Made by a program: the position numbers and the translations under genes. Shown here in pieces: positions 39,337 to 51,848 of a stretch of 51,848 nucleotides of DNA (its first letter is position 1; every line of letters starts with the position of its first letter). Source of the DNA: Myxococcota bacterium (GTDB taxonomy: Bacteria > Myxococcota_A > UBA9042 > DTJE01). The stretch is taken from the NCBI GenBank assembly GCA_017994695.1, contig JAGOKF010000019.1, forward strand, positions 1 through 51,848. Direction: 5' to 3'. Below the pieces are notes generated by a model. The model ran no database searches and was not told where the DNA came from. It saw nothing but the letters and a program-made list of their open reading frames with translations.

Positions 39337-40235
39337 CGATCCGTGCGGAAGAGGCCCTGGATCGGTACTTGCACCGGAAGAACGGGATGGATTACGGACC
39401 GTTCACGATCCGGGAGATGGAGCACCTGATCGAGTCGGGGGAACTGACCGCCGACTCGGAGATCCGGAAGCGGCGGGAACGGGAGTGGCACCGCCTCGGG
39501 GACGTCCCCCACTTTCGGGACTACCTGGAGGAGAAGACCCGCCGGGAAATGGAAGCGGCGCGGCAGCGGGAACTCCAGGCGGACCAGAGCCTGCTCCGGC
39601 GCCGAAGCCGCCGCGCGTCCACGCTGCCCTGGTGGATCGCCGGCGGCGTGGCGCTGGCTGGCGTGGCCACGGGCGTCCTGCTGGTCCGGGAACCGCCCCA
39701 GGCCCTGGCGGGATATCCGCTGCGGTTCTACCGGGAGTTCCCCCTGGACCCGATCACTCCCCTCCGGGCGATGGAGATGGCGCCCGTCAAGGTCGCCCGG
39801 GTGGATCCGCCCCCCCGGGCTCCGGCGGCCGGGAAGCGGCGCCCGAGGCCGGCGGCCGGGGTCGGCACCGGACCCGGGGGCGCCCAGTTGCTGGGCGTCG
39901 AACTGGAACTGTCCTATGAGAACGCGGACGGTTCGGCCGTGACGAGGCCCCTGAGCGCCGAGGATCTCCAGGGGATCCAGCGGCAGGTTTCGGGGCGCCT
40001 GGTCCGGTGCTTCAAGGCCGAGGCGATCCGGAATGCCGAGTTCCAGGGGGGATCGGTCTTCGTGTACATCGCTCCGAGCGGGCGGACCCAGGTGTCGAAG
40101 GTGGACACGAGACCCCCGGCCTCGGGGGAACTGATCTCCTGCATCCGGGGGTCCACGGCCGGGGTCTCCGTGGCTCCTTTCGCGGGCGGGGCCCAGGTGA
40201 TGGAGATCCCCCTGCGGGTGGCCGGCGCGGAGTGA
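39333..40235 (+). CDS. GYF-domain/AgmX-PglI C-terminal domain membrane protein
   Basis: A 300-residue bitopic protein. Residues about 15-65 are a GYF_2-type domain ('DYGPFTIREMEHLIESGEL', 'EWHRLGDVPHFRDY'), then a charged helix, one transmembrane helix at about 98-117 ('WWIAGGVALAGVATGVLLV'), a Pro-rich linker, and an extracytoplasmic TonB/AgmX-PglI-like C-terminal domain ('GRLVRCFKAEAIRNAEF', 'SVFVYIAPSGRTQVSKV', 'SCIRGSTAGVSVAPF') with two conserved-spacing Cys. AgmX-type proteins belong to myxobacterial envelope/motility machinery; a cytoplasm-to-periplasm linker role is inferred. The GTG start at 39333 overlaps the lipB stop, so it is translationally coupled to lipB. Confidence 0.85.
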   Translation: MTIRAEEALDRYLHRKNGMDYGPFTIREMEHLIESGELTADSEIRKRREREWHRLGDVPHFRDYLEEKTRREMEAARQRELQADQSLLRRRSRRASTLPWWIAGGVALAGVATGVLLVREPPQALAGYPLRFYREFPLDPITPLRAMEMAPVKVARVDPPPRAPAAGKRRPRPAAGVGTGPGGAQLLGVELELSYENADGSAVTRPLSAEDLQGIQRQVSGRLVRCFKAEAIRNAEFQGGSVFVYIAPSGRTQVSKVDTRPPASGELISCIRGSTAGVSVAPFAGGAQVMEIPLRVAGAE

Positions 40236-40292
40236 TCCGCCCGGGACGGTCCCAGGAAACCAAGACAGCCGGGCAGGGCAGGCGCGGGCGGG

Positions 40293-42128
<1,836 letters not shown>

Positions 42129-42215
42129 GTTCCTCCTGATCGCGCCCGCCCCCCTGCAGACTCCCGACCGACCCCTGCGGGCTCTACCCCTTCGCCCCAT
42201 GCGAACGGGTGGCGG

Positions 42216-42245
42216 ATATTACGGGCAGTCGGGCGGGGATGTCAA
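42216..42245 (-). promoter_or_regulatory. rpsA promoter
   Basis: Minus-strand TTGACA (42240-42245, perfect), an 18-base spacer and TAATAT (42216-42221). The -35 lies in the last codons of the upstream flavoprotein gene. The leader 42129-42209 is G-rich before the AGGAGG ribosome site. Confidence 0.55.
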
Positions 42246-43693
42246 CGGTTTCTGGAGGGTTCCAGGAACCTCCGGGCCGCGGTCATCCCCGAGTCCAGGC
42301 ACTGGTCCATGTTCAGGTAGTCGAAGCGGCCCTGGCGGCCCGCGGTGGCCAGGCCCTCCAGGGAATCCAGGTGGGCCAGCACGACCTGCCGGTCCTCCCG
42401 GAAGCCGCGGTACCAGCCGGGATAGGCCCGGGGCAGAAGGGATACCCAGGCGCCCCGGAGCAGGGGACGGAGGGGGACCCCTCGGACCCGCTCGAGGCCG
42501 GCGATGACTTCCCGGACCAGCCGGGAGGGGGCGCCGGGTCCTTCGGGGTCCACGGTGGTCTCGCCGGCCTCGGCGGCGGCATCCCAGGCCGCCTCGCCGG
42601 GGTCCGCGGTGATCTCGGCGCAGGCGACGGTCCGCCCGGGACCGTAGAGATCCGGGAGCAGGGCCCCGTATTCCGAGACCCGGTTGAACGGCAGGTCCCC
42701 GTCCTGGAAATAGGTCCAGTGGGACGGGAGCAGGGGCGGACGGTCCAGGGCCAGGTGGACCAGCACCAGGTCCCGGTGCCGGAGGCGGGCTGCCGCCTGC
42801 CGCACGGGGACGGGCGGGGGATCGGACAGCAGGGCGCACAGGTCCTGGAGGGGCAGGGTGGCGATCACCCGGGGCTCCCGGACCTCCTCGATCGATCCGT
42901 CGGGGTGGACCAGCCGTGCGGAGATCAACCGTCCGTGGTGGACCTCCAGGCCTGCCAGTCGGCTGCCCCCCTCGAACCGGGTGCGGTCGCCGCAGGCCCG
43001 GATCAGCGCCCGGAACAGGGTGTCGATCCCGTCGGGCCCGGTCACCTGAAGGCGGTGGAAGGGGGAATGGGGGTGGTCGATCGTGTCGGGGCGGTACCAG
43101 GGCATCAGGTTGCGGACCAGGTGGCGCCCTTTCGGCAAGGGCACCCTCCGCCGGGCCCACTCGCCGTCCAGGTCGGCCGGGTCGATGCCCGTCACCTTGC
43201 GGGTGTAGTCCCGGAAGAACAGCCGGTAGAGCACGTCGCCCACGGCATCCCGGACCACGGTCTCGAAGGTGTCCGGGGCCGGCCGGTGGAGGGCCTCCCG
43301 GGCCTGGGCCCGGAGGCGCCAGAGGACCGCCGAGGAGGCGATCATGGCGGCTCTCCGGGGACCCAGGGCCCGGATCACCTCGCCTTTCCGCAGGGGATAC
43401 CGGAGGAAGCGCCCCAGGAAATGGACGTGGGAGACGGGATGGACCCGCACGGCCCGGTCCCCCATCAGGGCCGTCACCTCGTCCACCAGGGGGCGCAGGC
43501 GATCCTCGGAGGCGTGGAGGAGGTGGACTCCCGGGCGCAGGGGCCAGCCGTCCCGGACGAAGCCGGCGGCCATCCCCCCGGGGACCGGGCTCGGGTCGAT
43601 GATCCGGCTCGGGATGCCCTGCCGGGCCAGGGCCCAGGCGGCCCCCTGTCCCGTCAGGCCCCCTCCGATCACCAGCACGGGGTCATCGGCCAA
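42242..43693 (-). CDS. FAD-dependent UDP-galactopyranose-mutase/protoporphyrinogen-oxidase-like protein
   Basis: A 483-residue flavoprotein with N-terminal GxGxxG ('VLVIGGGLTGQGAAWALAR'), 'VPGGMAAGFVRDGWPLRPG', the mutase-like 'HFLGRFLRYPLRKGEVI' and 'FFRDYTRKVTGIDPADLD', and an FAD-binding C-terminus ('ATAGRQGRFDYLNMDQCL'). These resemble UDP-galactopyranose mutase relatives found in glycan clusters, which may convert pyranose to furanose sugars or perform another flavin reaction. The start is TTG 43693, preferred because GGGAGGTCCTCG is ideally spaced and the GTG at 43678 has no SD; it overlaps the aminotransferase stop by 11 bases. Last gene of the 48.0-42.2 kb operon. Confidence 0.83.
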   Translation of the reverse strand: MADDPVLVIGGGLTGQGAAWALARQGIPSRIIDPSPVPGGMAAGFVRDGWPLRPGVHLLHASEDRLRPLVDEVTALMGDRAVRVHPVSHVHFLGRFLRYPLRKGEVIRALGPRRAAMIASSAVLWRLRAQAREALHRPAPDTFETVVRDAVGDVLYRLFFRDYTRKVTGIDPADLDGEWARRRVPLPKGRHLVRNLMPWYRPDTIDHPHSPFHRLQVTGPDGIDTLFRALIRACGDRTRFEGGSRLAGLEVHHGRLISARLVHPDGSIEEVREPRVIATLPLQDLCALLSDPPPVPVRQAAARLRHRDLVLVHLALDRPPLLPSHWTYFQDGDLPFNRVSEYGALLPDLYGPGRTVACAEITADPGEAAWDAAAEAGETTVDPEGPGAPSRLVREVIAGLERVRGVPLRPLLRGAWVSLLPRAYPGWYRGFREDRQVVLAHLDSLEGLATAGRQGRFDYLNMDQCLDSGMTAARRFLEPSRNR

Positions 43694-44861
43694 CGAGGAC
43701 CTCCCAAAGGGCCTCCGCGACCCGGTCCTGCTGGGCGTGGGTCAGGCGGGGATAGAGGGGCAGGGTCACCGTCGAGGCCCCGAGGCCCTCGGCCCGGGGA
43801 AGGGCCCCCTCGGGCAGGCCCAGGCGCCGGCGCCACCAGGACAGGAGGTGGACGGGGCGGAAGTTCACCGCGACGCCGATGCCCCGGGCCTGGAGTCCCT
43901 CCAGCACCTCGTCCCGGCGGTCCGGCGGGACCTGGATCGTGTAGAGGTGCCGGGCGTGGACCACGCCGGGTTGGATCGGGGGAATCCGGACCCCCGGGAT
44001 CCCCCGGAGCAGCCGGTCGTAGCGCCGGGCCAGTCGCTCCCGGCGGCGCCAGAGGGCCTCGAGGCGCTGCAACTGGGGGCGGAGCAGGGCGGCCTGGAGG
44101 TCGTTGAGGTTCGCCTTGTATCCCAGTTCCAGCATGTCCCAGTGGCGGTAGGCCTGGCCGTGGCGCGTGGCGGCGTCCCGGTCGATCCCGTGCAGGCGCA
44201 GGCGCCGGAGGCGGTCCGCCAGGACCGGGTCCCGGCAGGCGATGGCGCCGCCCTCGCCGCAGGAGAGATTCTTCGTGGCATAGAACGAGAAACAGGCGGT
44301 GTCCCCCAGGGTCCCCGGGCGGGCGCCGTCCCGGGATCCCTCGACGCAGTGGGCCGCGTCCTCGATCAGCCGCAGGCCATGACGGTCCGCCAGGGTCCGG
44401 AAGGCCCCCATGTCGGCCATCTGGCCGTAGAGATGCACCGGCAGCACGGCCCGGGTGCGGGGCGTCAGGGCGGCCTCCACCGCCGCGGGGTCCAGCAGCC
44501 CGGTGCCCTCCTCCACGTCGGCGAAGACGCAGGTGGCCCCGGTCCGGACGATGGCGTTGGCCGTCGAGACGAAGGTGATCGGCGAGGTGACGACCTCGTC
44601 CCCGGGGCCGATTCCAAGGGACACCAGCGACAGGAACAGGGCCTCGGTGCACGAGGAGACCCCCACGGCGGCCGGGACGCCCAGGAAGGCCGCGAACTCC
44701 CGCTCGAAGGCGGCGGTCTCGGGTCCGGTGGTCAGGAACAGGCCCCGGAGGACCCTGTCGATGGACCGGCGCTCCCGGGGGCCCAGGGAGTGGAGGTAGA
44801 AGGGGACGGGGGCCGGCGTCGTCGCGCCGGGGAGGGGATCGGGGACCTTCCTGCCTGCCAT
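43683..44861 (-). CDS. DegT/DnrJ/EryC1-family aminotransferase
   Basis: A 392-residue PLP enzyme that aminates nucleotide-linked ketosugars or related ketones. PLP Lys is K197 in 'FSFYATKNLSCGEGGAI'; other motifs are 'VSSCTEALFLSLVSLG', 'TSPITFVSTANAI', 'HLYGQMADM' and 'IEDAAHCVEG'. The 'YKANLNDLQAALLRPQL' block is typical of the sugar aminotransferases. ATG 44861 follows GAGGCGATC and lies 7 bases after the radical SAM stop. Sugar identity unknown; the neighbours suggest a carbamoylated aminosugar or polyol. Confidence 0.93.
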   Translation of the reverse strand: MAGRKVPDPLPGATTPAPVPFYLHSLGPRERRSIDRVLRGLFLTTGPETAAFEREFAAFLGVPAAVGVSSCTEALFLSLVSLGIGPGDEVVTSPITFVSTANAIVRTGATCVFADVEEGTGLLDPAAVEAALTPRTRAVLPVHLYGQMADMGAFRTLADRHGLRLIEDAAHCVEGSRDGARPGTLGDTACFSFYATKNLSCGEGGAIACRDPVLADRLRRLRLHGIDRDAATRHGQAYRHWDMLELGYKANLNDLQAALLRPQLQRLEALWRRRERLARRYDRLLRGIPGVRIPPIQPGVVHARHLYTIQVPPDRRDEVLEGLQARGIGVAVNFRPVHLLSWWRRRLGLPEGALPRAEGLGASTVTLPLYPRLTHAQQDRVAEALWEVLVGR

Positions 44862-44868
44862 GATCGCC

Positions 44869-46296
44869 TCAGCGCTTCATCGCGTAGTTGCGCACCATGT
44901 CGATCACGGTCCGGGCCCGCCCCTCGAGCATGGCCGGGTCCCGGAGCCGCCGCATCTCCCGCAGGACCCGGCGGGGGTTCGTGTAGAACGACAGGTAGGC
45001 CCGGTGAACCACCCGGTTCACCTGTTCCCGGGTGACGCCCGGCGCGAGGAAACGCCGGGTGACGCCCTGGAAGAAGTCGCTCCATCGGACCTCCCCGGAC
45101 CGGACTGCCTCGGCGATGCGCCATTCCTCGAAGAGGCGGCTGCCCGGGAGGGGGGTGGGGGTGTAGAAGTGGGCGTAGTCGGGATGCACCTCGTCGAGGA
45201 AGCGCAGCGTCTCCTCCATCGTGTCGGGGGTCTCCCCGGGCAGGCCGAAGACCCAGTAGGTCAAGGAGGGGATGCCCGCCTCCCGGCACCAGGCCAGGGT
45301 CTGGCGGGCGCGGTCCGCGGTGGTGCCCTTCCGGGAGGCCCGGAGCACCGCATCGGACCCCGACTCGACGCCGAAGGCCAGGAGTCGGCAGCCGGATCCC
45401 TTCATCGCCCGGAGGACTTCCCGGTCCACGGTGTCCACCCGGCTGTTCGAGAACCAGGAGATCCCCGGGGCCTTGCGCCGCAGGGCCTCCATCAGCGAAA
45501 GCGTCCATTCCCGGTCCCGGGAGAAGACGTCCGACTGGAGGAAGAAGTCCCCGACGCCCCGGGACCGACGCAGGAAGGCCACCTCGTCGGCGATGGCCTC
45601 GGGGGATCTGGCCCGCCAGGCGGCGCCGTGGAAGGCGTGGGTGGTGCAGAAGACGCACTGGAACGGGCAGCCCCGGGAGGTCTTCACCAGGGCGAAGGGG
45701 CGGCGGGTGTCCGCCGCCCGGTGGGTCCCGGTGCGCATCGCCTCGTGATCCGGGAGGGGCAGGGCGTCCAGGTCCGGGGCGAAGGGGCGGTCCGGGGCAT
45801 GGCCCGGAAGTCCCCCGGCCGACCAGGACACGCCGGGAACGTCCTCGAAGGACCGGGCGCCGGACCGCACGGCCATCGCCCACTGGAGGCCCGTGACCTC
45901 CGGCTCCCGCCGCAGCGCCACGGTCCGGTCCGGCCCCAGGTAGTCCTCCGGGCGGACGGTCGCGTGGGTTCCCCAGAAGGCCACCCAGGTCGCGGGAAGG
46001 GCTTCCCGGATGCGCCGGGCGGCCTCCAGGTCGTCCTCCAGGGAGGCGGTGATCCCCAGCAGGAAGACCAGGTCCGGGGCCTCCCGGAGGACCCGGGCGA
46101 TCATCTCCTCGAAGGACAGCCGTTCCTGGTTGGCGTCCAGCAGGCGGACGTCGAATCCCTCCCGGACCAGCAGGGTGGCCAGGATGCCGTGCTCGATGTT
46201 GGGCCAGAGCCCCACCAGCACCCGCCCCTGGCAGCGGCCGATGCGCAGGGAGGGGGTCCCGTCCCGGAGCACGGGGTTCAGCAGCAGCGCCTTCAT
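44869..46296 (-). CDS. B12-binding-type radical SAM enzyme
   Basis: A 475-residue protein with an N-terminal cobalamin-binding-like Rossmann part ('IEHGILATLLVREGFDVRLLDANQ' region shows the VxxLLxxxGxDVxLxD pattern but no clear DxHxxG) and a radical SAM core with C210-x3-C214-x2-C217 in 'GCPFQCVFC'. 'FGVESGSDAVLRASRKG' and 'GLPGETPDTMEETLRFLDEV' are standard B12-rSAM blocks. Possible reactions are methylation or ring rearrangement; not decidable. Its ATG overlaps the carbamoyltransferase stop (ATGA, 46293-46296), so translation is coupled. Confidence 0.88.
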   Translation of the reverse strand: MKALLLNPVLRDGTPSLRIGRCQGRVLVGLWPNIEHGILATLLVREGFDVRLLDANQERLSFEEMIARVLREAPDLVFLLGITASLEDDLEAARRIREALPATWVAFWGTHATVRPEDYLGPDRTVALRREPEVTGLQWAMAVRSGARSFEDVPGVSWSAGGLPGHAPDRPFAPDLDALPLPDHEAMRTGTHRAADTRRPFALVKTSRGCPFQCVFCTTHAFHGAAWRARSPEAIADEVAFLRRSRGVGDFFLQSDVFSRDREWTLSLMEALRRKAPGISWFSNSRVDTVDREVLRAMKGSGCRLLAFGVESGSDAVLRASRKGTTADRARQTLAWCREAGIPSLTYWVFGLPGETPDTMEETLRFLDEVHPDYAHFYTPTPLPGSRLFEEWRIAEAVRSGEVRWSDFFQGVTRRFLAPGVTREQVNRVVHRAYLSFYTNPRRVLREMRRLRDPAMLEGRARTVIDMVRNYAMKR

Positions 46297-48026
46297 CGGG
46301 GCCCCCGGGGGCCGAAGTCGGCCTTCCGCACCCGGACCGGTCCCAGGACCAGGCTCTCGAGGCCGCATTCCAGGAAGCATCCCGCAGCGTCGTCGGGGCT
46401 GCACACGATGGGCATCCCGGCGACGTTGAAGGAGGTGTTCAGCAGCAGGGGCACCCCGGTCCGGGCCTCGAAGGCCCGGATCACCGAGGCGGTCCAGGGA
46501 TCGACCCGATCGTCCACCGTGTGGACCCGGACCGTGCCGTCGGCGTGGAGCAGGCCGGAGATCCGGTCCGCCCAGGCCGCCCGGACCGGTCGCACCTTCT
46601 CCATCACGTCCGACCGGAACCCCTCGGGGGCATCGAAGACCTCGTGGACGCGGTGGGCCAGCACCGAGGCGGCGTAGGGGCGGAACCACTCCCGGCGCTT
46701 GACCTGCCGGTTCACCCGGTCCCGGACGTCCGGGATCCGGGGGTCCGCGAAGATGCTCCGGTGGCCCAGGGCCCTCTGGCCGAACTCCATGGGGCCCTGG
46801 GCGGCGCCGACGATCTCCCCGGCGGCGCAGAGGGCCGCGACCTCCTCGGACGGGTCCGCCACCTCGTCGAAGGGGAGTCCCCGGCGCCGGAGGGCCTGCC
46901 GGGCCTCCTCCCCGTCGATCCCCGGACCCAGGAAGGAGTGGTGCAGGGCCTCCCGGGGAAGTTCCGTGCCCTGGAGGGCCGCGTAGAGGGCCGCCCCGAT
47001 GGAGGTCCCGGAGTCGTCGGGCCAGGCCGGGATGTGGATGTCCTGGAAGGGCGCCCCGGGGTGTTCCAGACGCCCGTTGGCGAGGCTGTTCATGAAGCAG
47101 CCGCCTGCCAGGGCGACCCGGCTCTCCCCGGTGACCCGGCGGGCGTAGCGGAGCACCTCGCCGACGATCTCCTCGAAGGCCCGCTGCATCGCCCAGGCCA
47201 GGGCGAAGTGATCCGGGCCCAGGTCGTCCTGGCGATGCCGGGGCCGCATTCCCACGACCTCGGCCAGGGGACCGAAGTTCCGGGACCGGTGGAACAGGTA
47301 GTGGTCGAAGCGGGCCAGGTCCATCCGGAAGTCCAGGCGATCCCCGCCGCCGTCCACCCGGTAGAGGGTCCGTACCCGGTCCAGCAGCGACCGGCCCCGG
47401 TCCGGGTCCCCGTAGGCCCCCAGGGCCATCACCTTGTACTCCTCCGAGTCCTGGGTGAAGCCCAGGAACTCCGTGAAGTAGGAGTAGAAGGCCCCCAGCG
47501 AGTGGGGGAACAGGACGCGGTCCAGCACCTCGATGCGGTTGCCGGCGAAGCGCCCGACGGCCAGGGAGTCCTCCTCGCCGAAGGCGTCGATGGTGACAAC
47601 CGCGCCGTGATCGAAGGGGCTGGTGAAGGCCGCCGAGGCCGCGTGGGCCAGGTGGTGGTCCACGTAGATCACCCGCCTTCCGAAGACCCGCTGTTCCGAG
47701 GTCTCCTCGGGAGTCCAGCCGAAGACCCCGGCGAGGGAGTTGGGAACGTAGGCGTAGTAGAGGCCCCGGAGGCGGTTCGATTCCCGGAGGAGGCCCAGGT
47801 CCCGGGTCAGGTTCCGGGACGGGTTCCACCCGATCGCCACGGCATCCAGGTCCGCCGGTTCCCAACCGGCCTCCCGGATCGCCCAGCGGGCGGCCCGGGC
47901 GGGGAAGTTCCGGTCTCTCTTGAGACGGGAAAACCGCTCCTCGGGGGCCGCGGCGACGACCCGGCCGTCCTGCACCACGGCCGCCGAGGAGATGTACCCG
48001 CTGACGTTCAGCCCCAGGACGCGCAC
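46293..48026 (-). CDS. Carbamoyltransferase, NodU/CmcH family
   Basis: A 577-residue O-carbamoyltransferase that uses carbamoyl phosphate and ATP. The N-terminal 'VLGLNVSGYISSAAVVQDG' resembles the GISAFYHDSAA start; the Fe-binding 'VDHHLAHAASAAF' (H124, H125, H128) and 'VVTIDAFGEEDS' follow. The C-terminal YrdC-like-derived core shows 'AGGCFMNSLANG', 'DDSGTSIGAAL', 'GPMEFGQRALGHRSI' and 'REWFRPYAASVL'. Substrates in the family include nodulation sugars, antibiotics and aminoglycosides. GTG 48026 has GGGGAGGAAACCG. First gene of the four-gene operon. Confidence 0.95.
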   Translation of the reverse strand: MRVLGLNVSGYISSAAVVQDGRVVAAAPEERFSRLKRDRNFPARAARWAIREAGWEPADLDAVAIGWNPSRNLTRDLGLLRESNRLRGLYYAYVPNSLAGVFGWTPEETSEQRVFGRRVIYVDHHLAHAASAAFTSPFDHGAVVTIDAFGEEDSLAVGRFAGNRIEVLDRVLFPHSLGAFYSYFTEFLGFTQDSEEYKVMALGAYGDPDRGRSLLDRVRTLYRVDGGGDRLDFRMDLARFDHYLFHRSRNFGPLAEVVGMRPRHRQDDLGPDHFALAWAMQRAFEEIVGEVLRYARRVTGESRVALAGGCFMNSLANGRLEHPGAPFQDIHIPAWPDDSGTSIGAALYAALQGTELPREALHHSFLGPGIDGEEARQALRRRGLPFDEVADPSEEVAALCAAGEIVGAAQGPMEFGQRALGHRSIFADPRIPDVRDRVNRQVKRREWFRPYAASVLAHRVHEVFDAPEGFRSDVMEKVRPVRAAWADRISGLLHADGTVRVHTVDDRVDPWTASVIRAFEARTGVPLLLNTSFNVAGMPIVCSPDDAAGCFLECGLESLVLGPVRVRKADFGPRGPR

Positions 48027-48053
48027 CGGTTTCCTCCCCGCCCGAACCGTCCA

Positions 48054-48082
48054 AGTCTAGCGGGGAGCGGTCCCTCGAACAA
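48054..48082 (-). promoter_or_regulatory. Candidate promoter of the carbamoyltransferase operon
   Basis: Minus-strand TTGTTC (48077-48082), a 17-base spacer and TAGACT (48054-48059), about 28 bases before the GTG start. Box quality is three and four of six. Confidence 0.38.
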
Positions 48083-48116
48083 GGACGGCCCCTGGACGTG
48101 CCCGATTGCAGAGGTC

Positions 48117-49772
48117 TCAGCGGTTCGACCCGCGGCGGGACCGCAGGCCTCCGAGAGCCGCGACCAGGAAGAACAGGGGAGGCAGCATTCCATGACCTGA
48201 CGGGAAAAGTCCCTGGCATCCGCCCTTCCTGCCGGGGGGCCGGGGATTCTCGAGGTCTCCCGCCTGGGGGGCGTCGGTTTGGGGGAGGAGGGCATCGGCG
48301 GCCGGAACGTCCCGATCCTGCGGGGGGCTCCGGTCGTCTCCCGGGGTCTCCTCCGGAGCCTGCGACCCGGGGTCGGCGGGCGAAGGGCCGGGGTCCACGG
48401 CGGGTTCCGGGCCGTCGGCCTCGTCGGGTTCCAGGGAATCGGGTGCGGGCTCGGCGGCCTCAGGCGGGAGATCGGGATGGGGCGGCTCGACGCAGGGATC
48501 CTGGCCACCGGGCCAGGCCTTCCGGTAGGAGAAGACCTCGATGTCGAAGGAATTGGACGGGGACTGCCCCAGCAGTTGCTGGGCGGTCGAGCGCGCCCGG
48601 AACGTCAACTCGTCTCGAGCGATCTCGATGGACAGGAAGTGGTGATTTCCCGAGCACTTCTCGCTGCCCCGAGCCGAACCGCAGAAGAGGGAGACCGCGA
48701 TGTTGTAGGCCAGGGCGCCGGCCCCCCCCGTGACGACGTAGAAGGTTCCGTGCGCCGGATCGCCGACCGGAAGCCCCTCCGGTCCGCCGGTGCTCCGGAG
48801 GGGCTGGAAGCGCTCGTAGAAATGGTTGTGGCCGGAAAACACGAAATCCACGTGGTGACGGTCGATCACGGGGCCCAGGTGGGGATTCTGCCCCTGCTCC
48901 CCCGGCGGGTGGGAGATGTCCAGCAGGCCCAACAGGCTGGACGATGTGTGGATCGGATGGTGGAAGAACACGAATCTCCACATCCGGGGATGTTCCGACA
49001 GGACCTTGTCCAGCCAGGCCGCCTGCGCCGCGAAGTCTCGGAACGTCTGGGTGGACAGGGAAACGAAGATCGCGTTGCCGGTGGTGAAGAAGTAGTAGTC
49101 CTCGGTGCCGGTGACCTCGTTGCGGGGCAGGTGGAAGAGACGATTGTAGTGGGCTCCATCTCCGTCCTCGGGACCGTCGTCGTGGTTGCCGAGGGTCGGC
49201 AGGTGCGGGGCCACGGCCAGGGTCTGGTCCGAGGCCTCCAGCCAGTTGGCCCACTGCTTCGGATCCTTCCCGTCCCGCACGATGTCGCCGGTGTTCAGCA
49301 GGAAGCGCGGATGGCTGGTCAGGGCCTCGGAAACGATTGGAAACCATCGGGGAGACGGACCCGAGTCGTCGTCGCTGCGGTTGTCGCCCAGCACCCCGAA
49401 GGAATAGGGCGTGCAGGGATCCTCCGGGGGGGTTCGGAACCGGAATTCCTGGCTGAACTCCCCGGGTCCCCCGACCCGGTAGCGGTACTCGGTGTCAGGT
49501 TCCAGACCCTGGAGAGTGGCCTCGTGGAGGACTCCCAGGGGCGACGGAAGCACCGTCGCGGATCCCAGAACCTCCCCCTCCCAGCCCCCGTCTCGGCCGA
49601 ACTGCACCATCGAAGGGTCCGAGGCGGAATCCGAATGCCAGGAGACGCCGACCGTGCGGGTCGCGTCGGGCTGGGGAAACGAAAGGTGGACCCAGCGGGG
49701 AGGGGAGGCCCTGGCTTCCCGGGCGAGGAACGCCGACACAAGGACCGCCGCGATTCCGGGACGGATGGTCAT
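48117..49772 (-). CDS. Purple-acid-phosphatase-like metallophosphoesterase with MYXO-CTERM-like tail
   Basis: A 551-residue exported metallophosphatase. Signal peptide to about residue 22 ('AFLAREARAS'), an N-terminal fibronectin-like domain ('VHLSFPQPDATRTVGVSWHS', 'LEPDTEYRYRVG'), then the calcineurin-like core: 'SFGVLGDNRSD', 'LNTGDIVRDG', 'TLGNHDDG', 'FFHHPIHTSS' and 'FSGHNHFYERF', all metal ligands present. A roughly 80-residue Pro/Asp/Glu linker leads to a C-terminal GGCQG, a hydrophobic segment ('MLPPLFFLVAALGGL') and RSRRGSNR, the tripartite pattern of myxobacterial MYXO-CTERM surface sorting. Start ATG 49772 follows GAGGGG. Confidence 0.87.
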   Translation of the reverse strand: MTIRPGIAAVLVSAFLAREARASPPRWVHLSFPQPDATRTVGVSWHSDSASDPSMVQFGRDGGWEGEVLGSATVLPSPLGVLHEATLQGLEPDTEYRYRVGGPGEFSQEFRFRTPPEDPCTPYSFGVLGDNRSDDDSGPSPRWFPIVSEALTSHPRFLLNTGDIVRDGKDPKQWANWLEASDQTLAVAPHLPTLGNHDDGPEDGDGAHYNRLFHLPRNEVTGTEDYYFFTTGNAIFVSLSTQTFRDFAAQAAWLDKVLSEHPRMWRFVFFHHPIHTSSSLLGLLDISHPPGEQGQNPHLGPVIDRHHVDFVFSGHNHFYERFQPLRSTGGPEGLPVGDPAHGTFYVVTGGAGALAYNIAVSLFCGSARGSEKCSGNHHFLSIEIARDELTFRARSTAQQLLGQSPSNSFDIEVFSYRKAWPGGQDPCVEPPHPDLPPEAAEPAPDSLEPDEADGPEPAVDPGPSPADPGSQAPEETPGDDRSPPQDRDVPAADALLPQTDAPQAGDLENPRPPGRKGGCQGLFPSGHGMLPPLFFLVAALGGLRSRRGSNR

Positions 49773-49798
49773 CGGGAATCCCCTCTCGGGCCGGATCG

Positions 49799-49826
49799 AC
49801 GATACGAAATCCCCCCGGCTTTGCAA
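49799..49826 (-). promoter_or_regulatory. Candidate promoter for the phosphatase gene
   Basis: Minus-strand TTGCAA (49821-49826), a 16-base spacer and TATCGT (49799-49804), about 27 bases ahead of the ATG; four of six matches in each box. The rest of the gap to 49990 shows no other gene. Confidence 0.35.
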
Positions 49827-49990
49827 CCGGTCCCCGGAAGGGGGGCTTGGCCCCCGGGGGAGGGTGGACCCGGGAGGCGCGAGGGCCTTGCCGGGATTCC
49901 ATGGACGGACAGGCGTCGGAGGCCGAGACGTCGGCCCGGCGTGCCGGTGCCGGGACCGGACGGTGGTAGCATTGGCCGGCAGGAGGCGGG

Positions 49991-51848
49991 ATGACCGGCC
50001 GGGCGACCACGCGGAGGAGTTGGCCGTTTCTTCTTCGGGGGCTGCTGGCCGCGGGCCTCCTGGCATCCCCGGCGACCCTGGTCGCGACCCCCCTCCCGGA
50101 TCCCTGCGACCTGTCGGGGCTGGTCCAGGACCTCCGGTACCTCGGGCTCCCGGCCGTTGCCGCGGTGTCCCAGGGGCCGGGGCAGGGAGCCGGCGTGATC
50201 CTGTGTTCCGGGGAAGGGCCGGCGCTGCTGCTGGGAGCGGGCATCCGGGCACCGGACGGGGCCCTGGTGACCCGGTCCCGGCTGTTGGAAGGGGAGGCGC
50301 CGGTCCGGTCCCTCTGGATGACGCTGCAGGACCAGGCCGTGGACGGCCTGGGGGTCTCCCCGTTCCGGGGCTGCCCCGCGCTTGCGTTGCAGGAACCACC
50401 GGAGGGGACCCTCGGTGCCGCGGTGGACCTCCTGGCCCGGGACCTGTCCCATCGGCCGGCCGCCGATGGCGAAAAGGCCCCTTTGGGGGTCGTCACCTCC
50501 CGGCTCCAGGCGGCGGTGGTGTCCCTGGTCCTCGCCGTGGTGATTGCCTACCTGGTTCTCTGCCTCTGGAGGGTCCTTCCGAGCGCCCGGGGTCTGCCGC
50601 GACGGGACCTGGCCATCCTGCTGGTCCTGCTGGCCCTGGCGGTGCTGGTCCGGGGCGGGATGGGGCCCCGGCTGCCGGTCGGGACCGCCAACTCGGACCT
50701 GTCCCACTTGCTGGACATCCACCTGTGGGACCTCTGGGGCTTCGGGGTCCACCAGGGGGTGACCTATCCCCCGGCCTGGCGCCTGGCGATCTGGATGGCC
50801 TTCCACCTGTTCGGGCCTTCCTGGGACCTGGCCGCCTGGATGACCACCGTCGCCGGTGCGCTGCTGGTCCTGCCCGTGACCGCCTGGGTCCGCCGGGCCA
50901 CCGGGTCCTGGATGGCCGGGGCCCTGGCGGGGCTGGCCGCGGCGGTGATGCCGGTCGGGGTCCGGTTCAGCAACGGGGTGGTGCTGGAGACCCCGGCGGG
51001 CCTGCTGCTGGCCGCCTGCTGCTGGCACTTCTGGTGCTGGCTGGAGGGGCGCAGGGCCCTGGACGGCCTGCTCTGGGCCCTGTCGCTGGTGCTGCTGGTG
51101 CAGACCCGCCTGGAGACGTTGGGGATCCTTCCGATGCTGCTGCTGGTGCAGGGCACGGTGGCGGCCTGGCGCCTCGGGGTGGCCGGCCTGCGGCGCCTGT
51201 GGCCCTGGGCGGCCGTCGGCCTGGCCCTGGGCCTGCCCTTCCTGGTGCAGGTGGCCCTGCTGCTGCTGACCCGGGAGCAGGTCCAGGGGGACAAGGCCTC
51301 GGGGATGCTGCTGCCCGTCCTGGTCTTCGGCGGGATCGGTCTTTCCTTGGCCGTCGCCCTTCGCCCGGCCCGGCAGGCACCCCTGGCCGGGGAACCCTGG
51401 GCCTCCTTCGCCCGGGTGCTGGCCGGGGCGCTGATGCTGCTGTTCGTGGTCGAGGCGGCCGTCCAGTGGCCGGGGAACCCCTGGATGCCCGAGGCGATCA
51501 CCCACCCGGACTACCCCTTCTACCGGTTCTACATCACCTGGCCCCACGGGACCTGGCCCGACGACCGGGTCTATCCCGGGTGGCTGGTCAACGCCGGGAC
51601 CTTTCCCCTGCCGTTTGTGGGCCTGTGGCTGCTGTCCCTCTGGCCCTGGAGGAAAACGCCCCGAGAGATCCGGGGCCTGTCGTGGCTGCTGGCGTTGCTG
51701 CCGTGGTTCGGACACTTCCTGACCCGCCACGTTGGGACGGGCATCGCCCCCTTCGAGTGCCTCCGGCACCACGTGGTCTTCCTGGGGCCGGTGGCCGCCT
51801 CGGTGGGCTTGGGGGCCTGGCAGGTCCTGAGAACCCTGGAACACAGGG
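49991..51848 (+). CDS. Polytopic membrane protein, GT-C glycosyltransferase-like (3' truncated)
   Basis: An open frame of 619 codons running off the window with no stop. ATG 49991 has a perfect AGGAGG seven bases upstream. An N-terminal hydrophobic segment ('FLLRGLLAAGLLASPATLVA') is followed by an extracytoplasmic region of about 135 residues, then from about residue 170 at least nine transmembrane helices. The loop 'SHLLDIHLWDLWGFGVHQG' followed by 'TYPPAWRLAIWMAFHLFG' resembles the first large loop of dolichyl-phosphate-mannose-type GT-C glycosyltransferases, and 'LLVQTRLETLGILPML' the following helices. No catalytic DxD is certain. It is divergent from the phosphatase gene. Assignment to GT-C is by topology and pattern only. 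Confidence 0.75.
   Translation, partial: MTGRATTRRSWPFLLRGLLAAGLLASPATLVATPLPDPCDLSGLVQDLRYLGLPAVAAVSQGPGQGAGVILCSGEGPALLLGAGIRAPDGALVTRSRLLEGEAPVRSLWMTLQDQAVDGLGVSPFRGCPALALQEPPEGTLGAAVDLLARDLSHRPAADGEKAPLGVVTSRLQAAVVSLVLAVVIAYLVLCLWRVLPSARGLPRRDLAILLVLLALAVLVRGGMGPRLPVGTANSDLSHLLDIHLWDLWGFGVHQGVTYPPAWRLAIWMAFHLFGPSWDLAAWMTTVAGALLVLPVTAWVRRATGSWMAGALAGLAAAVMPVGVRFSNGVVLETPAGLLLAACCWHFWCWLEGRRALDGLLWALSLVLLVQTRLETLGILPMLLLVQGTVAAWRLGVAGLRRLWPWAAVGLALGLPFLVQVALLLLTREQVQGDKASGMLLPVLVFGGIGLSLAVALRPARQAPLAGEPWASFARVLAGALMLLFVVEAAVQWPGNPWMPEAITHPDYPFYRFYITWPHGTWPDDRVYPGWLVNAGTFPLPFVGLWLLSLWPWRKTPREIRGLSWLLALLPWFGHFLTRHVGTGIAPFECLRHHVVFLGPVAASVGLGAWQVLRTLEHR

Follow-up and report, generated by a model that had tools for sequence, protein, structure and literature searches.

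A genus-specific four-gene operon that may tailor a carbamoylated amino sugar in a Myxococcota bacterium

A compact operon in a Myxococcota bacterium joins genes for a carbamoyltransferase, a cobalamin-binding radical SAM enzyme, a DegT-family aminotransferase and a mutase-like flavoenzyme. We read it as a genus-specific operon for the synthesis or tailoring of an amino sugar that bears a carbamoyl group and is destined for a surface glycan, with partner enzymes encoded elsewhere, and give this reading a probability of roughly 0.55. The enzyme families, the co-conservation of the genes and the active-site residues that they retain all argue for amino-sugar tailoring with carbamoylation. The enzyme families are known ones brought together in a new arrangement, and a search of the literature found no paper describing this four-gene combination.

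Operon architecture

The window, meaning the whole stretch of DNA analysed (51,848 nucleotides of contig JAGOKF010000019.1), belongs to a genome of 3.96 Mb in 158 contigs with a completeness of 96.7%. The operon lies on the reverse strand and begins with an O-carbamoyltransferase of the NodU/TobZ/GdmN type (CarbT; 46293..48026, 577 aa, GTG start), followed by a cobalamin-binding radical SAM enzyme of an uncharacterised HpnJ/BchE-like group (rSAM; 44869..46296, 475 aa), an ArnB-like DegT/DnrJ/EryC1/StrS aminotransferase (DegT; 43683..44861, 392 aa) and a FAD enzyme resembling UDP-galactopyranose mutase (UGM), here called the flavoprotein (42242..43693, 483 aa, TTG start). The TGA of CarbT shares bases with the ATG of rSAM (ATGA, 46296-46293), 7 bp separate the rSAM stop codon from the DegT ATG, and an 11-bp overlap joins the DegT stop codon with the flavoprotein TTG. 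Pfam assigns each of the four genes unambiguously to a family, and coordinates, strand, junctions and families all agree with the first-pass annotation of this DNA. Its remark that the set lacks a glycosyltransferase is true within the operon, where no dehydratase, SDR, glycosyltransferase or transporter is encoded.

Transcription as a single operon is plausible from the sequence. A candidate sigma-70-like promoter, TTGTTC-N17-TAGACT (48054..48082, reverse strand), lies 27 bp upstream of the CarbT start codon within a block conserved in both operon-bearing species, the hexamers being identical in the two. This element speaks for the single promoter originally proposed, but it is too weak for a consensus promoter scan, in which it fell below threshold and the sole element reported was the rpsA promoter (TTGACA/TAATAT at 42245).

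Conservation within one genus

The same four-gene order recurs in the one other genome of the genus that was compared (JAKPOP01; contig JAKPOP010000004.1, a 'Deltaproteobacteria' MAG), where it sits in a 13.4-kb stretch with 84% nucleotide identity to the window. The junction types are kept there as an ATGA, a short gap and a GTG flavoprotein start with a conserved overlap, and amino-acid identity is 84-89% over all four frames (CarbT 89%). Between the two species dN/dS is 0.163 for CarbT, 0.161 for rSAM, 0.175 for DegT and 0.254 for the flavoprotein, compared with 0.098 for rpsA. All four operon genes are under purifying selection, and their frames are conserved beyond chance.

None of 11 other family genomes carries the operon, and it is likewise missing from samples of the phylum that comprised 284-379 genomes. 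Scans covering between 53 and 284 genomes turned up no further genome with close homologues of the full set, and in a search of 379 phylum genomes all flavoprotein matches at E <= 1e-50 fell inside the genus. A CarbT search of genome contigs recovered the sister species and, beyond it, nothing but a distant Acidimicrobiia locus. When the rpsA region was compared across seven family genomes, lipB and/or a GYF-type gene adjoined rpsA in six, the upstream side of rpsA varied, and none of the seven carried the operon, as if the genus had gained it at a variable site. The search for the same gene order elsewhere that was suggested at the outset thus returned a second species, but linkage conserved within one genus only, and with the set in two genomes co-occurrence statistics are thin.

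Enzyme families and active sites

CarbT matches PF02543 and PF16861 (Carbam_trans_N and C) over its full length with 146 and 187 bits, above the gathering scores. It aligns end to end with solved structures of VtdB (258 bits; PDB 7xb6, listed as 'Carbamoyltransferase', which we take to be VtdB), GdmN (251 bits) and TobZ (236 bits), an alignment that takes in the HH..HA motif and the C-terminal NTSFN region. CarbT shares the two-domain architecture of the TobZ/GdmN/VtdB/NodU O-carbamoyltransferases, and the predicted carbamoylation is supported. As a candidate NodU it was rejected, scoring 124.6 bits against the NF041651 cut-off of 1000. The phylum is rich in such enzymes, with matches at 1e-60 in 175 of 284 genomes, so the presence of CarbT says little by itself.

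DegT combines a PF01041 match of 374 bits with a lysine, Lys197, that aligns with the catalytic Lys188 of ArnB, placing it among the ArnB-like, PLP-dependent nucleotide-sugar aminotransferases. ArnB is its nearest solved relative (257 bits), aligned over its length, and PDB 2oga ('Transaminase', presumably DesV) comes next with 243 bits; since these scores are close, amination could fall at either C4 or C3. ArnB proper was rejected (292 bits against the NF008658 cut-off of 631, with no arn genes alongside).

The close homologues of DegT (50-59% identity) form a clade of 12 entries that is sister to the window pair, with support of 98/96, and 99/97 for the joint clade. In eight genomes the sister-clade gene is adjoined by SDR and GT2 genes, with a formyltransferase in one of these by Pfam (G164) and an ATP-grasp/LAL_C2 ligase plus a methyltransferase in two others tested (G236 and G097). 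Elsewhere in the clade the neighbours are SDR and GT2 plus GNAT (G007), a GNAT-SDR-DegT arrangement (G016) or a divergent GT2 (G116), and in G020 the contig ends at the gene; the GNATs of G007 and G016 match WecD-type dTDP-4-amino-sugar acyltransferases below cut-off. We infer that enzymes of this clade make a sugar amine and that each lineage then caps it in its own way. The sister loci resemble the Ara4N pathway (ArnA-B-C-T) in that DegT is accompanied by an SDR and an ArnC/PgfS-like GT2, and at times by a formyltransferase, whereas the operon has no ArnA, ArnC or ArnT and carries the UGM-like, rSAM and CarbT genes instead. Amino-sugar chemistry, as first proposed, is consistent with the catalytic lysine, with this sister relationship to sugar-type SDR-DegT-GT2 loci rather than to primary metabolism, and with the UGM-like flavoprotein.

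Across the phylum the SDR-DegT-GT2 module recurs with varying extras (nine loci), and these modules would appear to make a family of polyprenyl-linked, capped amino sugars.

The flavoprotein, with Pfam NAD_binding_8/Amino_oxidase domains, matches UGM weakly in a single-sequence search, and a profile search finds Aspergillus fumigatus UGM (AfUGM) over the full length with 220 bits, while protoporphyrinogen oxidase scores 82. Its AlphaFold model (pLDDT 84.6, pTM 0.85) likewise has AfUGM as the best PDB match (TM 0.77, E 3e-27), followed by protoporphyrinogen oxidase at about 0.7. With residue roles taken from AfUGM (PMC3624792), the flavoprotein retains the flavin histidine, all five diphosphate contacts and the sugar-contact asparagine (N457); H63, Y104, F158, R182, Y317, R327, Y419, R447, Y453 and N457 are conserved in three alignment modes. 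It lacks Q107, N163, W167, Y334 and probably N207, whose column aligns unstably, and T and L stand at the W167 and Y334 positions in the operon pair alone. Because N207, Y334 and W167 are not kept and the T and L are specific to the operon pair, UDP-Galp itself is an unlikely substrate. The fold, the flavin histidine and the diphosphate-binding Arg/Tyr set thus place the protein among UGM-type flavoenzymes, in keeping with the mutase-like label of the first-pass annotation, but it is only ~18% identical to the eukaryotic type, belongs to an uncharacterised PRK07208-like group and differs in the substrate pocket (N207, W167, Y334, Q107), so that it was rejected as UDP-galactopyranose mutase proper. 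Sequence and model together point to flavin chemistry on a diphospho-sugar with an altered sugar pocket. The flavoprotein and DegT are not of the primary-metabolism type that would have spoken against a specialised pathway, and their linkage is conserved, though limited to the genus.

The UGM reaction uses the free O4 of its sugar. A C4-amino sugar has no free O4, and a single sugar can therefore not undergo the textbook reactions of both DegT and the UGM-like enzyme; either DegT aminates C3, each enzyme has a sugar substrate of its own or, more speculatively, nitrogen serves as the nucleophile.

The B12-binding and Radical_SAM domains of rSAM, with the motif CPFQCVFC (CxxxCxxC), establish it as a cobalamin radical SAM enzyme. 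Its top NCBIfam matches are HpnJ (191 bits, cut-off 578) and BchE (156 bits, cut-off 481), with which it shares both domains at about a third of the cut-offs. Since these scores are low and resemble those of unrelated B12-rSAMs in the phylum, they do not assign a reaction. HpnJ itself (TIGR03471) was rejected on this score and on the lack of a hopene cyclase match. The best PDB match is AprD4 of apramycin biosynthesis, and the nearest homologues are 31-37% identical with uncertain tree neighbours.

B12-rSAM genes of different subgroups are frequent neighbours, at distances up to about 5 kb, of UGM-like flavoproteins of the PRK07208 type (seven loci); such rSAM genes accompany UGM-like homologues in seven genomes, in one of which (G214) a carbamoyltransferase is also near. 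Co-localisation was not accepted as proof of shared function, the neighbouring rSAMs placed in the tree not being grouped with the operon rSAM.

Proposed pathway and alternatives

We infer the following order of steps, together with the substrates, the glycan destination and the product. Dehydratase/epimerase genes at other sites in the genome would supply a nucleotide keto-sugar, which DegT would transaminate. The N5 of reduced FAD in the UGM-like enzyme would attack C1 of a diphospho-sugar, either the same or a partner sugar, and alter its ring form (pyranose/furanose type); rSAM would then make a C-H-based change such as a methylation, deoxygenation or ring rearrangement; and CarbT would transfer a carbamoyl group from carbamoyl phosphate with ATP, as in NodU/TobZ-type enzymes. 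Glycosyltransferases encoded elsewhere would probably place the product on a surface glycan. Other contigs of the genome hold further nucleotide-sugar aminotransferases of the DegT type, SDRs and one ArnC/PgfS-like GT2, and thus precursors and transfer functions could come in trans. By analogy with the sister loci, the carbamoyl group may be this genus's amino-sugar cap, where relatives use a formyltransferase, acetyltransferase or amino-acid ligase. An improbable extension is that the UGM-like enzyme and then rSAM process the amino sugar from DegT, so that the carbamoylated product has a contracted ring and is an aminofuranose, a ring-nitrogen sugar (in which the 4-amino group would attack C1 in the UGM-type step) or an aminocyclopentitol; we know of no sugar of this kind in bacterial glycans.

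It is unlikely, but to be weighed, that the four translationally coupled enzymes belong to different pathways, or that only two or three cooperate while rSAM or CarbT works elsewhere. The O4 conflict, the restriction of the set to one genus and the different contexts in which the nearest relatives of each gene sit fit such a division, which is hard to square with three (near-)overlap junctions kept in both species and purifying selection on every gene. Marginally less likely still is a small diffusible metabolite, aminoglycoside- or aminocyclitol-like, in place of a glycan building block. The CarbT relatives TobZ, GdmN, VtdB and the novobiocin carbamoyltransferase act on secreted natural products, and both the AprD4 match and the genus-restricted distribution would suit this product; yet no scaffold synthase, regulator, exporter or resistance gene adjoins the operon, whose flanks are rpsA and a phosphatase gene, and the abundance of CarbT-type enzymes in the phylum also counts against it. 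The first-pass annotation had envisaged a carbamoylated amino sugar or cyclitol added to a known scaffold, or a secreted metabolite: the carbamoyl and amino-sugar parts stand, while the known scaffold, the cyclitol (for which there is the generic HpnJ-like match common to other B12-rSAMs) and secretion (the operon has no transporter) are conjectural.

A hopanoid or other lipid headgroup pathway is strongly disfavoured. HpnJ is the top NCBIfam match of rSAM, and carbamoyl, amino and cyclitol-ether hopanoids exist, carbamoyl and amino bacteriohopanepolyols among them (PMC12583986), but a search of the 96.7%-complete genome for the hopene cyclase family TIGR01507 found nothing; the hopanoid pathway was not found there, the HpnJ score is far below cut-off and equally high in unrelated rSAMs, and the flavoprotein is UGM-like, not HpnE-like. 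If the preferred amino-sugar reading is true, it adds a carbamoyl branch to a phylum-wide amino-sugar system with formyl-, acetyl- and amino-acid-ligase-type genes in other lineages, pairs a UGM-type flavoenzyme with a cobalamin rSAM on a probable sugar, and gives two enzymes of uncharacterised subgroups a testable substrate class.

Genomic surroundings

Downstream of the operon lies rpsA with its own promoter, TTGACA-18-TAATAT (42216-42245, reverse strand), which begins at the stop codon of the flavoprotein gene; most of it is kept in the sister species. Rfam finds no RNA family at 40000-51848, and PADLOC gives only weak fold-level matches. Directly upstream and co-directional with the operon is a gene for a purple acid phosphatase-like protein (48117-49718, reverse strand), whose C terminus, a cysteine followed by a hydrophobic Arg-rich tail, looks like a C-terminal sorting signal; no NCBIfam family naming such a signal matches it. 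Farther upstream, a divergent gene on the forward strand (49991-51848+) runs off the window and is complete as L139:2803-5235. It encodes an 811-aa polytopic membrane protein that matches no Pfam or NCBIfam family and, by eye only, resembles membrane glycosyltransferases.
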